From: Acidobacteriota bacterium
Lineage (GTDB): Bacteria > Acidobacteriota > Vicinamibacteria > Fen-336
Length of the DNA stretch: 64,000 bases
Assembly (NCBI GenBank): GCA_022340585.1
Contig: JAJDNS010000032.1
Coordinates: 1-64,000, forward strand
Direction of reading: 5' to 3'
Shown here: piece after piece, positions 2,997 to 23,315 of the stretch
Numbering within the stretch: the first letter of the stretch is position 1
How the letters are laid out: every line of letters starts with the position of its first letter
Notes under the pieces: model-generated
Seen by the model: only the letters and a program-made list of their open reading frames with translations
Database searches by the model: none
Told to the model about the DNA's origin: nothing
Position numbers and translations under genes: made by a program

Positions 2997-4391
2997 ATGA
3001 CCGCAACCCACGTCCTGCTCCTGGGCTACGCCGCCCTGCTCGTCGGGGCCGGGGTCTGGGTCACCCGCCGGGTGCGGGCCCCGGGAGACTTCTTCGTCGC
3101 CGGGCGGGCCTTGCCCGCGGGGATGGTGTTCGCCACCCTCCTCGCCGCGAACATCGGGGCGGGCTCCACCGTGGGGGCGACGGGGCTCGGCTACCGCAGC
3201 GGGCTGTCCGCCTGGTGGTGGTCGGGGTCGGCGGCGATCGGGTGCCTGGTCCTCGGGCTCGTGGTGGCCCCCCGGATGCACCGGCTGGCGGTGGAGCACC
3301 GCTTCCTCACCGTGGGAGACTTCCTGGAGTGGCGGTTCGACCGCTCGGTCCGGGTGGCGATCGCGGCCATCCTCTGGATCGGGACGGCGGCGCTGCTCGC
3401 GGGACAGCTGATCGCCATGGCCTGGGCCTTCGAGGTGATCGCCGGGCTGCCCCGGCTCTGGGGCTCGCTGCTCTCCGCCCTGATCCTCACCGCCTATTTC
3501 AGCGGGGGCGGCCTCATGGCCTCGGCGTGGGTGAACCTCCTGCAGCTCGTCGTCCTGGTCGTTGGGTTCGCCCTGGCCGTCCCGTTCGCGTGGTCGGCGG
3601 GGGGAGGCTGGGCCGGACTCGAGGGCGCGGCCGGGGCCGAGGCCGCGTCGGCCTACGGGAGCCTCAGCGGGATGGGGCTGGCCGGGATCCTGGGGCTGGT
3701 GGTGGTGTTCGTGCCGTCCTTCATCGTGTCCCCGGGGCTGATCCAGAAGGCGTTCGGGGCCCGGAGCGCGAGCGGCGCCTCCCGGGCCGCCCTCGGCAAC
3801 GCCGCGGCCCTGGCGCTGTTCGCCTTCGTGCCGGCCCTCCTGGGGATGGCGATGCGGTCGGTGGAGCCAGGGCTGGCCAACTCGGAGATGGCGCTCCCGC
3901 GTCTCACGATGGACGTCCTCCCTCCGTGGCTCGGGGGGCTGGGGCTCGCTGCGCTGTTCGCCGCCGAGCTGTCCTCGGCCGACGCCATCCTCTTCATGTT
4001 GTCGACGTCCCTGAGTCGCGACCTCTACCAGGCCGTCCTGCGACCCGAGGCCACCGACGCGCAGCTGCTACGGGTGGGGAGAGGGGCGGCGGTGGCGGGC
4101 GGGGCCGTCGGACTGGTCCTCGCCCTGCTGCTGCCCTCGGTCGTGGCCGCGCTGAAGCTCTTCTATGGGATCATGACCGCGGCGTTGTTCGTTCCGCTCC
4201 TCGTGGGACTCTTCTCCTCGCGGCCCGGGGCACGTCACGCGCGGGCGGCGATCGCCCTGTCTGTCGTGGGAACCGGGGTGGGTCTGATCGTTCTGGCCGG
4301 GACCCCGAGGGGCGGCTGGCTTCCGTCGGTGATCGGGATGGGGCTGGCCCTGGGCGTATTCGCCGCCGCGTGGCTCGGCCCGGGAGACTGA
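2997..4391 (+). CDS. Sodium:solute symporter family protein
   Basis: Integral membrane transporter of the SSS (solute:sodium symporter, LeuT-fold) family, 464 aa with about 12-13 hydrophobic segments. Family features include an N-terminal DFFVAGRALPAG segment after TM1, the GAGSTVGATGLGYRSGLSAWW motif region of TM2, FLTVGDFLEWRFD, and the conserved ELSSADAILFMLSTSLSRDLYQ near TM8. It probably couples sodium entry to uptake of an organic solute; the solute cannot be told from sequence. It starts 19 bp after dgt and probably shares its transcript. The P1 peptidase follows after 34 bp, so imported or periplasmic peptides or amino acids are a reasonable but unproven guess. Confidence 0.9.
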   Translation: MTATHVLLLGYAALLVGAGVWVTRRVRAPGDFFVAGRALPAGMVFATLLAANIGAGSTVGATGLGYRSGLSAWWWSGSAAIGCLVLGLVVAPRMHRLAVEHRFLTVGDFLEWRFDRSVRVAIAAILWIGTAALLAGQLIAMAWAFEVIAGLPRLWGSLLSALILTAYFSGGGLMASAWVNLLQLVVLVVGFALAVPFAWSAGGGWAGLEGAAGAEAASAYGSLSGMGLAGILGLVVVFVPSFIVSPGLIQKAFGARSASGASRAALGNAAALALFAFVPALLGMAMRSVEPGLANSEMALPRLTMDVLPPWLGGLGLAALFAAELSSADAILFMLSTSLSRDLYQAVLRPEATDAQLLRVGRGAAVAGGAVGLVLALLLPSVVAALKLFYGIMTAALFVPLLVGLFSSRPGARHARAAIALSVVGTGVGLIVLAGTPRGGWLPSVIGMGLALGVFAAAWLGPGD

Positions 4392-4425
4392 AGCCGCGAC
4401 ACGTCGGGGTGCTACGATCGCGCCC

Positions 4426-5514
4426 ATGAGCACGATGGGACGGCGTGAGTTCTCGGTGTCGCTGGCGGCCGGGCTGGTCGCCGGGTGGGTCTCCGACGCC
4501 GCCGCCGGGGAAGGAGCCGGCATGGACGCGACGCAGACGAGGGACGGTGGTCTGACCCAGGTGGGCGGCATCAAGGTCGGGCACTTCACCGAGAGCCGCC
4601 GACCCACCGGTTGCACGGTGATCCTCACCGAGGACGGGGCGGTGTGCGGTGTCGACGTGCGCGGAGGCGCCCCGGGCACGCGGGAGACGGACCTTCTGGA
4701 CCCGGTCAATACGGTGCAGAAGGTGCACGCGGTGGTTCTGTCGGGAGGAAGCGCGTTCGGATTGGAGGCGGCCGGTGGCGTGGTGCGCTACCTGGAGGAG
4801 CGCGGGATCGGCTTTCCCGTGGGCCCGGCGAAGGTGCCCATCGTTCCCGCGGCCATCCTCTTTGACCTGGGGGTGGGGGACTGGACGATTCGCCCGGGGG
4901 CAGATGCCGGCTATCGGGCCGCACGGGCCGCGACCGACGGGCCGGTGCCCGAGGGCTCGGTCGGGGCCGGGGCCGGGGCCACGGTGGGGAAGGTGTTGGG
5001 GCTGTCCCGCGCCATGAAGGGTGGCCTCGGCACCGCCGTCGTGCGCCTGCCGCGGGGGGGCACGGTGTCCGCCCTGGTGGCGGTGAACGCCATGGGCGAC
5101 GTGCTCGACCCGGACACCGGCCGAACGGTGGCCGGAGTGCGGGGCGAGGACGGAAAGTCGCTCCCGGGGGCGATGAACGTCCTCCTGGCGGGCACGGGAG
5201 CCCACGCTTCGCAGAACGGCGAGAACACGAGCATCGGGGTGGTGGCCACCGACGTTGCGCTCACGAAGGCCGAGGCGACGAAGGTGGCGCAGATGGCCCA
5301 CGACGGTCTCGCGCGGGCCATCCACCCGGTCCACACGCCGTGGGACGGGGACACGCTCTTCGCGTTGTCGACCGGCAAGGTCGAGATTCCCCAGCCGGCG
5401 TTCCTGGTGGGGGCGGTGGCGGCGGAGGTGGTGGCCCGCGCGGTCGTCCGCGCGGTACGGGCTGCGACGGGGCTGCCGGGGCTGCCTTCAGCCACCGAGC
5501 TCGGGAGCGCGTGA
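4426..5514 (+). CDS. P1 family peptidase (DmpA/BapA-like, family S58)
   Basis: Self-processing N-terminal nucleophile aminopeptidase of the DmpA/BapA group, 362 aa. The probable autocleavage site is Asn267-Thr268 in GENTSIGVVATD, making Thr268 the catalytic nucleophile of the smaller chain. The conserved VGHFTESRRPTGCTVIL, VLSGGSAFGLEAAGG and VGAGAGATVGK blocks are present. The N-terminus (MGRREFSVSLAAGLVAGW) resembles a Tat signal with a twin arginine, so export is likely. A TACGAT hexamer ends 7 nt before the ATG and there is no Shine-Dalgarno sequence, so the mRNA may be leaderless. An ATG at 4435 is an alternative start. Members hydrolyse N-terminal D-, L- or beta-amino acids; the exact specificity is unknown here. 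Confidence 0.92.
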   Translation: MSTMGRREFSVSLAAGLVAGWVSDAAAGEGAGMDATQTRDGGLTQVGGIKVGHFTESRRPTGCTVILTEDGAVCGVDVRGGAPGTRETDLLDPVNTVQKVHAVVLSGGSAFGLEAAGGVVRYLEERGIGFPVGPAKVPIVPAAILFDLGVGDWTIRPGADAGYRAARAATDGPVPEGSVGAGAGATVGKVLGLSRAMKGGLGTAVVRLPRGGTVSALVAVNAMGDVLDPDTGRTVAGVRGEDGKSLPGAMNVLLAGTGAHASQNGENTSIGVVATDVALTKAEATKVAQMAHDGLARAIHPVHTPWDGDTLFALSTGKVEIPQPAFLVGAVAAEVVARAVVRAVRAATGLPGLPSATELGSA

Positions 5515-5540
5515 CGGGCCGACGGACAGCGCGATCCCGC

Positions 5541-5899
5541 TGTGGACAAGCTGTGGATGTCGCGTGGAGATGCGGGCGAAGGGCTGTGGATCGCCTGTGC
5601 GGCACCGCGGCGCACCGTGTGGAAAGGCTGAGCACGGCTTGTGGACGAGAGGCCGATCGGGTGTGGGAAAGCTCGGTCGCTCTGTGGAAAGATGGCCGGT
5701 CGATTGTGGAAGATCGGCGACCTTTCTGTGGAGAAATGGCTCCCCGGGTGTGGAGGGGATGTGAGCGAACGGTGCACAACCGCCGCCCGGCCGTGGAAAA
5801 GGCGGGCCGGACCTGTGGAAGAAGGGACCCCTCCCTGTGGGTGCGTCGTGCATGGCGTGTGGAAGACTGCCTCGCCGGTGTGGGAAACCTGTGCGCGGG
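5541..5899 (+). repeat. Phased array of TGTGGA (DnaA-box-like) motifs, 22-bp period
   Basis: The 385-bp gap between the P1 peptidase and the next gene is non-coding and holds one motif over and over in one orientation. TGTGG or CGTGG followed mostly by A occurs at 5541, 5552, 5563, 5585, 5618, 5640, 5662, 5683, 5705, 5727, 5749, 5792, 5814, 5836, 5858 and 5879. Weaker copies lie at 5596, 5760 and 5771. Steps are 11, 21, 22 or 33 bp, so all copies lie on one face of the helix. The first copy, TGTGGACAA, equals the DnaA box of high-GC actinobacteria; the commonest full form is TGTGGAAGA. Sequence between the motifs is not conserved. Function unknown; a DnaA-binding origin or titration site is the leading guess. 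Confidence 0.85.
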
Positions 5900-7615
5900 G
5901 TGACTAGGCTCGCCGGGGCGCTCGTCTTTGCGTCGACCGCGGTGTGGGTCGGAGCCTGTCTGGCGGTCCTCAACGGTGCAGTGTCCTCCTGGGTGGCCTG
6001 GGCGGCGCTGCTGTCGGGAGCCGCCGCGGGGGCCGTTGCCGCTTGGCGGACGGCCGCGGCGGCCGCTGGGGACGTGCCAGCGGAGACCGCGGCGTCGCTG
6101 GTGGCGTGGCTCCAGGGCCTCCCGAAGCTCGAAGCCCTCGCGTTGACCGCGTTCGCGGTGGTGTCCCTGCGCCAGTTCGGCTGGCTTCTCTTCGCGCGGG
6201 GGGACCTGCTCCTGACGCTCCTCCCCAACAACTACGGAGACCTGCCCCTCCACTGGACGTACGTCCAGCACTTCGCCGGGGGAGCGCCGTTCTGGCCGGA
6301 GAGCCCGATCGCGGTGGGGGAGCGACTGCGGTATCCCCTGGGCGTCGACCTTCTCACCGCCCTCCTCGTGGTGGTGGGCGTGGGCGCCCGGGTCGTCTGG
6401 CCCCTGCTCGGCCTGGCCGGGGCGGCGGCCGCCGCCCTCGCCCTGCGCCGTTGGGGAGGGGCACTCGCCGTTGCCGGCTTTCTCTTCTCCGGGGGCCTGG
6501 CCGGGTTCCCGCTGCTGTGGACCGGCCGCCTCCTGGACTACCAGGACGCCGTGGCCTGGAAGAACCTCTACCTGGCGCTCTTCGTTCCTCAGCGGGGCTT
6601 CCTGCTGGCGTTGCCCGTGGGACTGCTGCTGCTCTGGAGCTGGCGCCGTCGTCTTCTCCGGGGCGAGGCCGCCCTGCCGGCGTGGGTGGAAGGAGTCCTC
6701 TGGGGATCGTTGCCCCTCGTGCACCTTCACACCTTCCTCCTCGTCTCCGTGGTCTACGCGGTGTGGGCCCTGGGCGGTCGGCGGCTGGAGGCCGCCGGGC
6801 CGACTCTCGCCTGGGCCGTGGTCCCGGCCACCTGGGGTGTCTGGCAGGTCAGCGACGGATTCCGAGCCGTCTCCCTCGTGGGGTGGCAGCCCGGGTGGGT
6901 GATCGGTGACGAGAACCCCCTCGTCTTCCTCGCGGTCAACTTCGGGGTCTTCCTTCCCCTCGCCCTCGCCGCCCTCGCTCTCGCCTGGCGGGAGCGCCGA
7001 CGAGAGGAGCTGCTGGTGCTCGGGCCCGCCCTCGCCGTGTTCGCGGCGCTGTTCTTCGTGCGGCTGGCTCCCTGGGCCTGGGACAACACGAAGGTGATGC
7101 TGTGGTGCTACCTGCTCGCGCTCCCGCCCATCGGGTCTCTCGTCCTGGCCCGTCTCCGCCGGCCCTGGGCGGCGCTGATGGTCGTGGGGCTTCTCTTCTC
7201 GGGGGCGGTCAGCGTGACCGCCGCGTCTCTCGGCCGGGGGCCGCGTCTCGAGGTCCTGAGCCTCTCGGAGTACGACGCCGTCTGCGCGGCGCTGGCGTCA
7301 CGCCCCCTCACCGAGCGCGTGGCGGCCGCCCCCACCTTCAACCACCCGGTGGCGCTGTGCGGCCACCCGCTGGTGCTGGGCTACGGCGGCCACCTGTGGA
7401 GCCACGGTATCGACGCCACCGAGGTGGAGCGTGGCCTGAAGGCGGTGCTCGGCGGAGCGCCCGGGTGGCGCGAGGAGGCGCGGGCCATCGGGGCGGAGCT
7501 GCTGTTCTGGGGCCCCCGGGAAGACGTGGCCTATCCCGACTCGCTGCGGCCATGGGAGGGTGAGATCGAGCCGCTCGCCTCCGGATGGTGGGGGCGCGTC
7601 TACCCCTTGGACTGA
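5900..7615 (+). CDS. Polytopic membrane protein, GT-C-like
   Basis: Large integral membrane protein of 571 aa with roughly 12 hydrophobic segments and a short soluble C-terminal part. The luminal-type loop after the first segments (LLPNNYGDLPLHWTYVQHF and ERLRYPLGVDLL) resembles membrane glycosyltransferase-fold (GT-C) proteins, but I recognise no defining catalytic motif, so the enzyme assignment is tentative. The GTG at 5900 is chosen because it follows the last TGTGG repeat; an upstream GTG at 5891 and an ATG at 5837 would place coding sequence inside the repeat array. No strong ribosome site is seen. The gene ends one base before the convergent EamA gene. It could act in lipid-linked sugar transfer, or it may be an unrelated membrane protein. 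Confidence 0.75.
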   Translation: MTRLAGALVFASTAVWVGACLAVLNGAVSSWVAWAALLSGAAAGAVAAWRTAAAAAGDVPAETAASLVAWLQGLPKLEALALTAFAVVSLRQFGWLLFARGDLLLTLLPNNYGDLPLHWTYVQHFAGGAPFWPESPIAVGERLRYPLGVDLLTALLVVVGVGARVVWPLLGLAGAAAAALALRRWGGALAVAGFLFSGGLAGFPLLWTGRLLDYQDAVAWKNLYLALFVPQRGFLLALPVGLLLLWSWRRRLLRGEAALPAWVEGVLWGSLPLVHLHTFLLVSVVYAVWALGGRRLEAAGPTLAWAVVPATWGVWQVSDGFRAVSLVGWQPGWVIGDENPLVFLAVNFGVFLPLALAALALAWRERRREELLVLGPALAVFAALFFVRLAPWAWDNTKVMLWCYLLALPPIGSLVLARLRRPWAALMVVGLLFSGAVSVTAASLGRGPRLEVLSLSEYDAVCAALASRPLTERVAAAPTFNHPVALCGHPLVLGYGGHLWSHGIDATEVERGLKAVLGGAPGWREEARAIGAELLFWGPREDVAYPDSLRPWEGEIEPLASGWWGRVYPLD

Positions 7616-7616
7616 C

Positions 7617-8477
7617 TCAGCTCCTCTTCGTGAGGACCAGGGCGAGGGCGGCGAGGACGATCATCCCCCCGACGAGGGTCCAGGGGCCCGGGACCTCGCC
7701 GAAGAGAAGCCAGCCCATGAGCGACGCCCCCACGGGCTCGCCCAGGAGGAAGAGCCCCACCGTCGGCGCGGGGAGAGCCCGGAGCGACCAGTTGGCGAGG
7801 CCGTGCCCGCCGATGGTCGGCACCAGGGCCAGGGCCACGAAGGCGAGCCACGCCCCGGCGGGGTAGCCGGTGAGGGAGACACCGAAGACCGCGGCGAGGA
7901 GGCCCAGGGCGAGGGCGGCGGTGCCCCACACTCCGAGGATGTAGGCACTCAGGGGGAGGGCCGCGCGCAGCCCGCGGCCGATGACCTGGTATGCGGCGAC
8001 GGTGACGGCACCGGCGAGGGCGAGGAGGTTTCCGAAGAGCGAGCCCGGCGACGCGGCGTGGTCCCCCAGGGCGATGAGGGCGGCCCCGACCATGGCCACG
8101 GGGATGGCGACCACGACCACGCCGCTCGGGCGCTCGTGGAGGAACAGGGAGGACAGCACCACGGCGAAGACGGGCGCGGTGTTCACCAGCAGGACCGACG
8201 AGGCGATCGAGGTGTAGGAGAGGCTCGCGATCCAGGTGGCGAAGTGGAGAGCCAGGGCCATGCCGGCGCCGCCGAGGATGGCCGCCTGCCGACGGGAGAG
8301 CGCGGGCCACGAGCGGCGCGCCGACGTCCCGGCGAAGGGGAGGAGGAAGAGGGACGCCAGGGCCACGCGGTAGAACGAGACCGCCAGGGCGGGGGCGTCG
8401 GCGAGGCGGACGAAGATGGCCCCGAAGGAGACGAAGACGACGGCGAGGCAGAGGACGAGGTAGGGAGGGGCTCTCAC
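7617..8477 (-). CDS. EamA/DMT-family transporter
   Basis: Drug/metabolite transporter superfamily protein, 286 aa, with ten hydrophobic segments arranged as two EamA repeats. The first repeat carries FGAIFVRLADAPALAVSFYRVALASL and the second ends with LFLLGEPVGASLMGWLLFGE, both typical of EamA domains. The GTG start overlaps the stop of the upstream AlaX-type gene by 4 bases (GTGA), so the two are translationally coupled. Members export amino acids, nucleosides or other metabolites; since threonine synthase lies in the same run, an amino-acid efflux role is possible but only inferred. It converges tail to tail with the preceding membrane-protein gene, 1 bp apart. Confidence 0.88.
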   Translation of the reverse strand: MRAPPYLVLCLAVVFVSFGAIFVRLADAPALAVSFYRVALASLFLLPFAGTSARRSWPALSRRQAAILGGAGMALALHFATWIASLSYTSIASSVLLVNTAPVFAVVLSSLFLHERPSGVVVVAIPVAMVGAALIALGDHAASPGSLFGNLLALAGAVTVAAYQVIGRGLRAALPLSAYILGVWGTAALALGLLAAVFGVSLTGYPAGAWLAFVALALVPTIGGHGLANWSLRALPAPTVGLFLLGEPVGASLMGWLLFGEVPGPWTLVGGMIVLAALALVLTKRS

Positions 8478-22139: not shown

Positions 22140-23315
22140 ATGGCCAGCAAGAAAAAGGGTGGAGCGGTTGCGCCCTCTGCCCGCGGTCGGGCGTCGAAGA
22201 CCGCGGTCAAGAAGGCCGTCAAGGCAGTGAAGAAGGCGGCCCCGAAGGCCCGCCGGAGCGCTGCGGCCAGGAAGAAGGCCGCCCCGAAAGCCAAAGTGAA
22301 GAAGGCGGCGGCGAAGGCGACGAAGAAGCCTGCGGCCAAGAAGCCCACGAAGAAGGCAGCGGCGAAGAAGGTCGCGCCGAAGAAGGCGACCCCCAAGAAG
22401 GCGACCCTTAAGAAGGCCGCCCCGAAGAAGGCCGCCCCGAAGAAGGCCGCCCCGAAGAAGGCCGCCCCGAAGAAGGCCGCCCCGAAGAAGGCTGGCACCA
22501 GGAAGGCCGCCCCGAAGAGGACTGCCGCGAAGAAGGCGGCGGCCATAAAGAGGTCGACGGCCAGGACCACCGGCCTCGGGACGTCGCGCCGGCGGCGGCG
22601 GGAGGCGCCCGTGGTTCCCCCGGGAGCCATCCCCGGCCTCAGCGAGGAAGACCAGATCCGCTCCGCCAAGTACCTGCCGCGGGAGCTGCCCGACCGGCTC
22701 TTCGAGGAGGAGCGGTTCCTGTTCCCGGAGAGCTACGGCGTCAACCGCGTCCGTCTGCTCGTCCGCGATCCCGAGTGGGTCTTCGCCTACTGGGACGTCA
22801 GCGCGGAGACGATGAAGGGCCTCGCGCGAAGCCTCGGTGAGCGAGCCTTCAAGCTCTCGCGCCTGACCCTTCGGGTGCTCGACCCCGTGAGCGGCGGCTC
22901 GAGCGACATCCTGCTGCCGTCGGGATCGCGCTGGTGGTACATCCGGACCGACGCCGCTCGCCGCACGTATCGCGCGGAGATCGGGGTCACGCTGCCCTCG
23001 GGTGAGTTCCGGAGGCTCGCCGAGAGCAACGCGGTGGTCACCCCGCGGGTGGGACCCTCGCGCGAGCGGGCCCGTCGTCGGCTCAGCTACGCGGGCGCCG
23101 GCGACCTGCCCCTGGAAGAGACGTCGGCGGCCGGGAAGGCGGACCGCGAGGCGGGCCTCGCCTCGGAGCCCTGGACGGGAGCCGGCGACGCGTCCGCCTC
23201 GGGTGGGCACGGCGGGGCCAGCGACTCCTTCCGACCGACCCGGCCCGGCGGAGAAGCCCGGCCCGGGGCGAGCGACACCTTCCGGCCCGGGGCCAGCGAC
23301 ACTCACCGCCGCTAG
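22140..23315 (+). CDS. Histone-H1-like Lys/Ala-rich region fused to a DUF4912 domain
   Basis: 391-aa two-part protein. Residues 1-140 are almost all Lys, Ala and Pro with repeated KKAAP units, coded by tandem 15-bp repeats near 22411-22490, like the tails of bacterial histone H1 homologues. From about residue 165 a DUF4912 domain follows (LPDRLFEEERFLFPESYGVNRVRLLVRDPEWVFAYWDVS). The C-terminal 70 residues are Gly/Ser/Pro-rich with repeated RPGASDTF-type units. The start is the ATG at 22140, 8 nt from a -10 element. The GH57 branching enzyme lies 11 bp downstream; DUF4912 next to GH57 genes recurs in many bacteria, so a role in polysaccharide storage is plausible. The basic tail might bind DNA or polyanions. 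Confidence 0.88.
   Translation: MASKKKGGAVAPSARGRASKTAVKKAVKAVKKAAPKARRSAAARKKAAPKAKVKKAAAKATKKPAAKKPTKKAAAKKVAPKKATPKKATLKKAAPKKAAPKKAAPKKAAPKKAAPKKAGTRKAAPKRTAAKKAAAIKRSTARTTGLGTSRRRRREAPVVPPGAIPGLSEEDQIRSAKYLPRELPDRLFEEERFLFPESYGVNRVRLLVRDPEWVFAYWDVSAETMKGLARSLGERAFKLSRLTLRVLDPVSGGSSDILLPSGSRWWYIRTDAARRTYRAEIGVTLPSGEFRRLAESNAVVTPRVGPSRERARRRLSYAGAGDLPLEETSAAGKADREAGLASEPWTGAGDASASGGHGGASDSFRPTRPGGEARPGASDTFRPGASDTHRR
22411..22490 (+). repeat. 15-bp tandem repeats in the DUF4912 gene
   Basis: Five near-identical copies of AAGAAGGCCGCCCCG encode consecutive KKAAP units. The identity at third codon positions suggests recent slippage expansion. Confidence 0.85.

Follow-up and report, generated by a model that had tools for sequence, protein, structure and literature searches.

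The window analysed here is a 64-kb stretch of contig C82 (86,470 bp), taken from a 6.26-Mb draft genome in 231 contigs (G000), which we assign to the class Vicinamibacteria of the Acidobacteriota. Towards its left end lie four genes and, between the third and the fourth, a series of short repeated motifs:

1820–2977, + strand: HD-domain phosphohydrolase, presumably a dGTPase; part of the conserved neighbourhood
2997–4391, + strand: sodium:solute symporter (PF00474, Pfam match)
4426–5514, + strand: peptidase of family S58 (PF03576, Pfam match); its stop codon is 26 bp before the first unit
5541–5889, + strand: array of 16 DnaA-box-like units (consensus cTGTGGAnnnn), in one orientation, with steps of 11n or 11n−1
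5541–5549, + strand: first unit of the array, by sequence TGTGGACAA (reverse complement TTGTCCACA)
5903–7615, + strand: hydrophobic protein, probably with multiple membrane spans judging from its translation; no Pfam match

The membrane-protein gene likely starts near 5903, and its open frame extends back to 5837, into the array. None of the four genes scanned by the array codes for a replication protein; three were assigned to other Pfam families, and the one for the membrane protein to none. Elsewhere in the window, at 22343–22537, we observed a long tandem repeat with a 15-bp period (12.9 copies), the unit of which is readable as alanine, proline and lysine codons.

A phased, single-orientation array

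A preliminary description of the locus had counted 16 good copies of TGTGGA in one orientation. We recovered the same number: between 5515 and 5905 there are 16 sites matching at least five of the six bases, 11 of them exact, all on a single strand (starts at 5541, 5552, 5563, 5585, 5618, 5640, 5662 and 5683 in the first half, and at 5705, 5727, 5749, 5792, 5814, 5836, 5858 and 5879 in the second). The opposite strand of this interval holds one site of that quality. In 2000 dinucleotide shuffles of the interval, exact copies averaged 0.54 and never exceeded 4, and sites of at least 5/6 averaged 5.6 with a maximum of 13. The steps between neighbours (11, 11, 22, 33, 22, 22, 21, 22, 22, 22, 43, 22, 22, 22 and 21 bp) are, every one, 11n or 11n−1. 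The best period is 10.9 bp, with a Rayleigh z of 15.4 (maximum possible 16), and periods of 10, 10.5 and 12 bp gave nothing. The array is real: its number, phase and orientation are far beyond chance.

Some details of the phase have to be revised. Every copy had been said to stand a multiple of 11 bp, give or take 1 bp, from the first; this is true of each step but not cumulatively, as the offset adds up to −3 bp by the end of the array. The spacing of 22 bp had been taken as the basic unit, but relatives fill more of the 11-bp positions, so that the basic period is 11. Nor were three additional weak copies confirmed as a class, for the positions midway between two copies with a 22-bp step average 2.2 of 6 matches and are not clearly weak boxes. 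The non-coding call was correct, since the steps are not multiples of 3, and a coding repeat was rejected for that reason. An RNA element was also rejected, with no Rfam match at gathering score in 4000–8000. Plasmid iterons are directly repeated initiator sites at about 22 bp, and we rejected these too: the array has no long conserved repeat and no rep gene among the four scanned neighbours, its units share only 6–9 bases (as had been remarked before) and its chromosomal place is conserved in the family.

Persistence within the family

To sample the family (f1) we used 14 genomes, all of them drafts, and searched for the phased pattern with at most one mismatch. Phased arrays of the unit were found in 10 of the 14, within the same wider gene neighbourhood, against one match each in G000, G001 and G011 for the reversed pattern used as control. 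Comparing orthologous spacers was a check put forward in the preliminary description, and its outcome is therefore positive for ten genomes and negative for others. The phased match is absent from four (G004, G005, G010 and G011), which weighs against the functional reading that we favour below; the peptidase spacers of G004 and G011 contain 1 and 3 hits and no phased array, and G005 and G010 were assessed by pattern search alone.

Copy number is highly variable. Counting units of at least 5/6 in the chosen stretches gave 20 in G001, 16 in G000, 15 in G009, 14 in G003, 10 in both G006 and G008, 7 in G002, 5 in G007 and 3 each in G012 and G013; copy numbers as low as three also count against the favoured reading. 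The phase is far steadier: over the ten genomes, 87 of 92 neighbour steps fall within 11n ± 1 (chance 3/11), one step in G008 having been left out of the 92 because it spans two pieces joined with Ns. Copy number and letters thus turn over between family genomes, while core, phase and orientation persist in the ten.

The place of the array is also largely maintained. Eight of the 10 array genomes (G000, G001, G003, G006, G007, G008, G012 and G013) have units after the S58 peptidase gene, and in all eight the array strand is the peptidase strand, a point in favour of our reading. In G008 the units are split, with four after the peptidase and six beyond the membrane-protein gene, beside an asparaginase gene. 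The peptidase was not found by search in the remaining two, G002 and G009. The G009 array lies upstream of a relative of the window's membrane-protein gene (such relatives adjoin the array in G001, G006 and G008 as well), and the G002 array lies near frr, a gene which, like several neighbours, was named from its translation with no family search. In four genomes (G003, G007, G012 and G013) the peptidase and asparaginase genes converge and the array occupies the gap between their 3′ ends; hence it is not a promoter element there.

The 20 peptidase loci scanned from relatives outside the family (L007, L009, L013, L014 and L017–L032) never have more than two same-strand TGTGG[A/G] per 400 bp, and in nine further loci with three or four in 400 bp the spacing shows no 11-bp array. 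A second, shorter array does exist in G000, just upstream of a 2-oxoglutarate dehydrogenase E1 gene (C126:48846–48917, about 9847–9918 of L185), with seven sites, six of them phased; five sites lie at a like gene in G001 (C30:29136–29196), a genome of the same genus. Pattern searches found no cluster of comparable length elsewhere in G000, where isolated triplets do occur. A lone phased triplet was seen in G006 in a divergent gene gap (C49:2119–2147, L187), at neither of the two conserved sites.

Kinship with the DnaA box and location of the origin

The unit consists of (C)TGTGGA followed by an A-rich triplet, i.e. TTTTCCACA(G) when read on the other strand. The earlier likening of this unit to a DnaA box proved right, since it is the same as the box beside dnaA in this lineage: [A/T]TTTCCACA occurs upstream of dnaA in 12 of the 13 genomes examined, exactly as TTTTCCACA in nine of them, G000 included, and in the thirteenth (G035) the region upstream of dnaA is cut by the start of its record. 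The G000 DnaA itself has near-complete matches to all three DnaA domains. In the array, a short stretch carries more close matches to the DnaA box of its own genome than chance would give, as in a DnaA-box cluster. The spacing has a parallel in Thermotoga, whose DnaA cooperates best on co-oriented 9-mers placed 2 bp apart, i.e. with an 11-bp period, as described in part of a published study (PMC10316083).

The letters around the core could be compared in columns that had played no part in unit selection. A C precedes the core in 84 of 115 family units (a set that includes two shorter arrays at another gene) versus 18 of 31 units beside dnaA elsewhere in the phylum, and A occupies the three positions after the core in 43, 43 and 46 of the 115 versus 13, 17 and 14 of the 31. 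Phased triplets are found in 44 of 396 phylum genomes, against 2 in the reversed control. Of these phylum loci we fetched 25. Four adjoin dnaA (L364, L370, L377 and L379), with three located in the dnaA–dnaN gap, and all four belong to other families of the phylum. The other 21 of the 25 show neither dnaA nor dnaN in the roughly 3 kb that each covers, which counts against the reading that we favour below. One acidobacterial genome, G240, carries three phased triplets (C56:16353, C56:18113 and C136:69066); the first lies just upstream of dnaA, and another of the three is on the opposite strand, 1.7 kb away.

The match in flanking preferences with the boxes beside dnaA, together with the phased unit beside dnaA in four genomes of other families, makes it unlikely that the array serves a different DNA-binding protein whose site resembles a DnaA box, even though the core TGTGGA has only six bases and the dnaA–dnaN gap, with its sparser boxes, does not resemble the array.

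A cluster of DnaA boxes could also be an origin of replication, yet we find an origin at dnaA more likely than one at the array. As had been pointed out, dnaA is not nearby: in G000 it lies on contig C141, and the array on C82. The gap between dnaA and dnaN keeps 5–7 co-oriented sites in all six family genomes examined (7 in G000 and G001, 6 in G013 and G006, 5 in G003 and G009), counts that were each reached by 0–7 of 1000 shuffles. Of 10 family genomes searched, 8 carry a parS-like site at a distance of 4–5 kb from dnaA; G006 has one more hit, located elsewhere, and no hit falls near an array. Outside the family, the search gave no site in G035 and one in G024, on a different contig from dnaA. 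The absence of an AT-rich stretch at the array was confirmed as well, the AT-richest 30-mer within 5300–6200 being only 50% AT, so that there is no obvious unwinding element at the boxes.

GC skew, another check that had been proposed, was computed on contigs and gave a one-way course around the array in G006 and G000, and a less clear one in G013. On the 139-kb contig of G006, the cumulative skew rises along the 33 kb to the left and the 105 kb to the right of the array, with few negative 6-kb windows. On the 86-kb contig of G000 all 15 windows are positive, although just 5.5 kb of this contig is to the left of the array. In both genomes this holds after coding-strand correction, and there is no change of sign at the array. 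A weak exception is G013, where the strand-corrected skew changes sign near the array, over few genes. Around dnaA, skew is weak in G000, G006 and G013 and gives no clear origin signal. In two genomes from outside the family, G035 (a complete genome of 7,480,314 bp, which we take to be Luteitalea) and G189, it goes from plus to minus near dnaA, weakly and contrary to the usual direction. For the position of the origin in the class we consequently used only the coding-strand bias of G035, where coding strands diverge from dnaA in the sampled stretches. In favour of an origin at the array stand the weak or inverted skew at dnaA, the flip in G013 and the fact that the array has more and better boxes (16 sites, 11 exact) than the dnaA–dnaN gap of G000 (7 sites, 2 exact). 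On balance we consider it improbable that the array is the chromosome's actual origin, oriC having moved away from dnaA.

A putative DnaA sink and a candidate counterpart in the class

The sequence, phase and orientation of the array are established, its place is conserved in the family, and its unit is identical to boxes at dnaA. From these features we consider it somewhat probable that the array is a platform for DnaA oligomers outside oriC, which titrates or inactivates DnaA. The preliminary description had left three options, namely an origin, a DnaA locus away from oriC, and an array bound by some unknown protein; the second is thereby favoured, with partial support. DnaA would bind each TGTGGA unit (the box TTTTCCACA on the other strand) and, because the units are co-oriented at multiples of 11 bp (a 9-bp box plus 2 bp), neighbouring ATP-DnaA could stack head to tail on them. 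The locus would then withdraw free or ATP-bound DnaA, more so after its own duplication, either through simple titration or through ATP hydrolysis promoted in the stacked complex, as by E. coli datA. The predicted outcome is a limit on re-initiation at the oriC beside dnaA, with a possible effect on initiation timing. Counting against a continuous filament, most boxes of G000 are 22 bp apart and the positions midway are not evident weak boxes.

The array appears to be of a known kind, a DnaA-box cluster outside oriC, but it is built in an unusual way, its boxes (up to about 19 in phase) keeping strictly to an 11-bp period and to a single orientation. The arrays of E. coli oriC have a 2-bp box spacing. 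These left and right arrays, and boxes 3–5 of Thermotoga maritima, are oligomerisation regions in which co-oriented 9-mers serve head-to-tail ATP-DnaA, according to sections of two papers (PMC10316083, PMC4285127); they are parts of origins with an unwinding element, whereas our array has no AT-rich stretch and lies on a different contig from dnaA. E. coli datA resembles the array in being a non-coding DnaA-box cluster outside oriC, one that promotes DnaA inactivation. In passages of a review it is described as a region of about 1 kb that works with IHF and promotes hydrolysis of DnaA-bound ATP (PMC5295017), and it differs in having five boxes plus IHF, against 16 co-oriented boxes at 11-bp multiples here. 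B. subtilis, a member of another phylum, has six DnaA-box clusters (DBCs) outside oriC whose joint removal leads to early initiation (PMC5295017); elsewhere the same review denies these clusters any significant part in initiation, which counts against our reading. The B. subtilis clusters and datA serve as our working models for the mechanism. The non-origin loci for DnaA control in the relevant passages of that review are those of E. coli and B. subtilis (PMC5295017), and a 2025 paper argues, in the part concerned, for DnaA titration on the E. coli chromosome (PMC12371093). An array of this build was not found in the open-access literature searched. The earlier statement that no element of exactly this form has been described needs a qualification, as smaller phased sites exist across class and phylum and the array is not without parallel.

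The array could conversely be a DARS-like site, which would not be a sink but would reactivate DnaA, DnaA-ADP stacking on it and exchanging its nucleotide. It is non-coding, its place is conserved and its boxes are clustered, but nothing at the array points to exchange rather than sequestration, and the DARS cores of E. coli have few boxes. The DARS1 and DARS2 loci of E. coli are, like the array, regulatory DnaA-box loci outside oriC, but they reactivate DnaA and their cores work with partner proteins, as stated in part of the review (PMC5295017). We judge a DARS-like role of the array rather improbable. Very improbable, in turn, is transcriptional control of the downstream membrane-protein gene or of the peptidase by DnaA or another factor: the array does lie just upstream of the membrane-protein gene or its relative in G000, G001, G006 and G009, but convergent 3′ ends flank it in G003, G007, G012 and G013, as they do six of the ten units of G008, and it stays while neighbours change. 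A decayed tandem repeat without function, which the tandem 11-bp architecture might suggest, is scarcely credible, for neutral decay should erode core and spacer at the same rate, and here only the core and its flanking preferences are shared: the other letters vary between units and genomes while core, phase and orientation persist in ten genomes.

Besides the array that we regard as a putative DnaA sink, smaller sites of similar geometry are found in the class. A stricter pattern with at most two mismatches, run on 193 Vicinamibacteria genomes, matched in 53 of them, versus 2 in the reversed control (G056 and G069). Eight of the 53 belong to f1; from the other 45 we fetched 22 loci (L306–L327) and read one more, in G189, by place. 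A locus of G024 (L246), found by a different pattern, joins the 22 fetched ones to give 23 loci. At all 24 sites the boxes lie between genes for an unnamed protein of ~460 aa and another of ~72 aa, neither with a Pfam match. The 23 loci have three to five boxes each, with steps of 11 or 22 bp; L308 and L321 each have a single exception. In 19 of the loci the 20-mer richest in AT comes directly downstream of the boxes, and 15 of them, like G189, have an asparaginase relative further along. TTCG-N8-TTCGCTTG is present in 23 of 23, 123–126 bp downstream of the first box in 22 and 112 bp downstream in L314. When TTCG and TTCGCTTG were searched with a spacing of 7 instead of 8, 12 genomes gave four hits, and the reversed control gave three. 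This conserved element stands just upstream of the gene for the 72-aa protein. In the complete genome of G189 the site lies at 5,684,813 of 6,468,984, 0.78 Mb from dnaA (at 340), and shows no clear skew change.

Relatives of the ~460-aa protein, at 32–41% identity, are found in other families. With the protein of L313 as query, no match was found in any of the 14 f1 genomes, in a search that had no built-in positive control; the family array and the class-wide site consequently look complementary. We rejected the asparaginase gene beside both kinds of array as shared synteny (the proteins are 34% identical and the arrangement differs), and we do not claim that the window and the G189 site have genes in common, as two window proteins matched there at 34–35% identity in 240 kb.

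Taking the two kinds of site together, we tentatively propose, as a possibility that is still rather doubtful, that Vicinamibacteria keep a dedicated locus for DnaA control away from oriC. In much of the class this would be a compact site of three to five head-to-tail boxes with TTCG-N8-TTCGCTTG fixed downstream, between the two unnamed genes; in the family of the window, where one of these genes was not found, the role may have been taken by the greatly enlarged array, phased at 11 bp and with as many as about 19 boxes, which would be a new kind of DnaA sink forming a single filament track. The class-wide site has a fixed architecture that lends itself to testing in species whose genomes are complete. 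If the function holds, the array would be a natural substrate for separating the titration from the ATP-hydrolysis models, and the persistence of an array with stacking geometry, away from dnaA, throughout a family of another phylum would point to a repeated origin of DnaA sinks in evolution.
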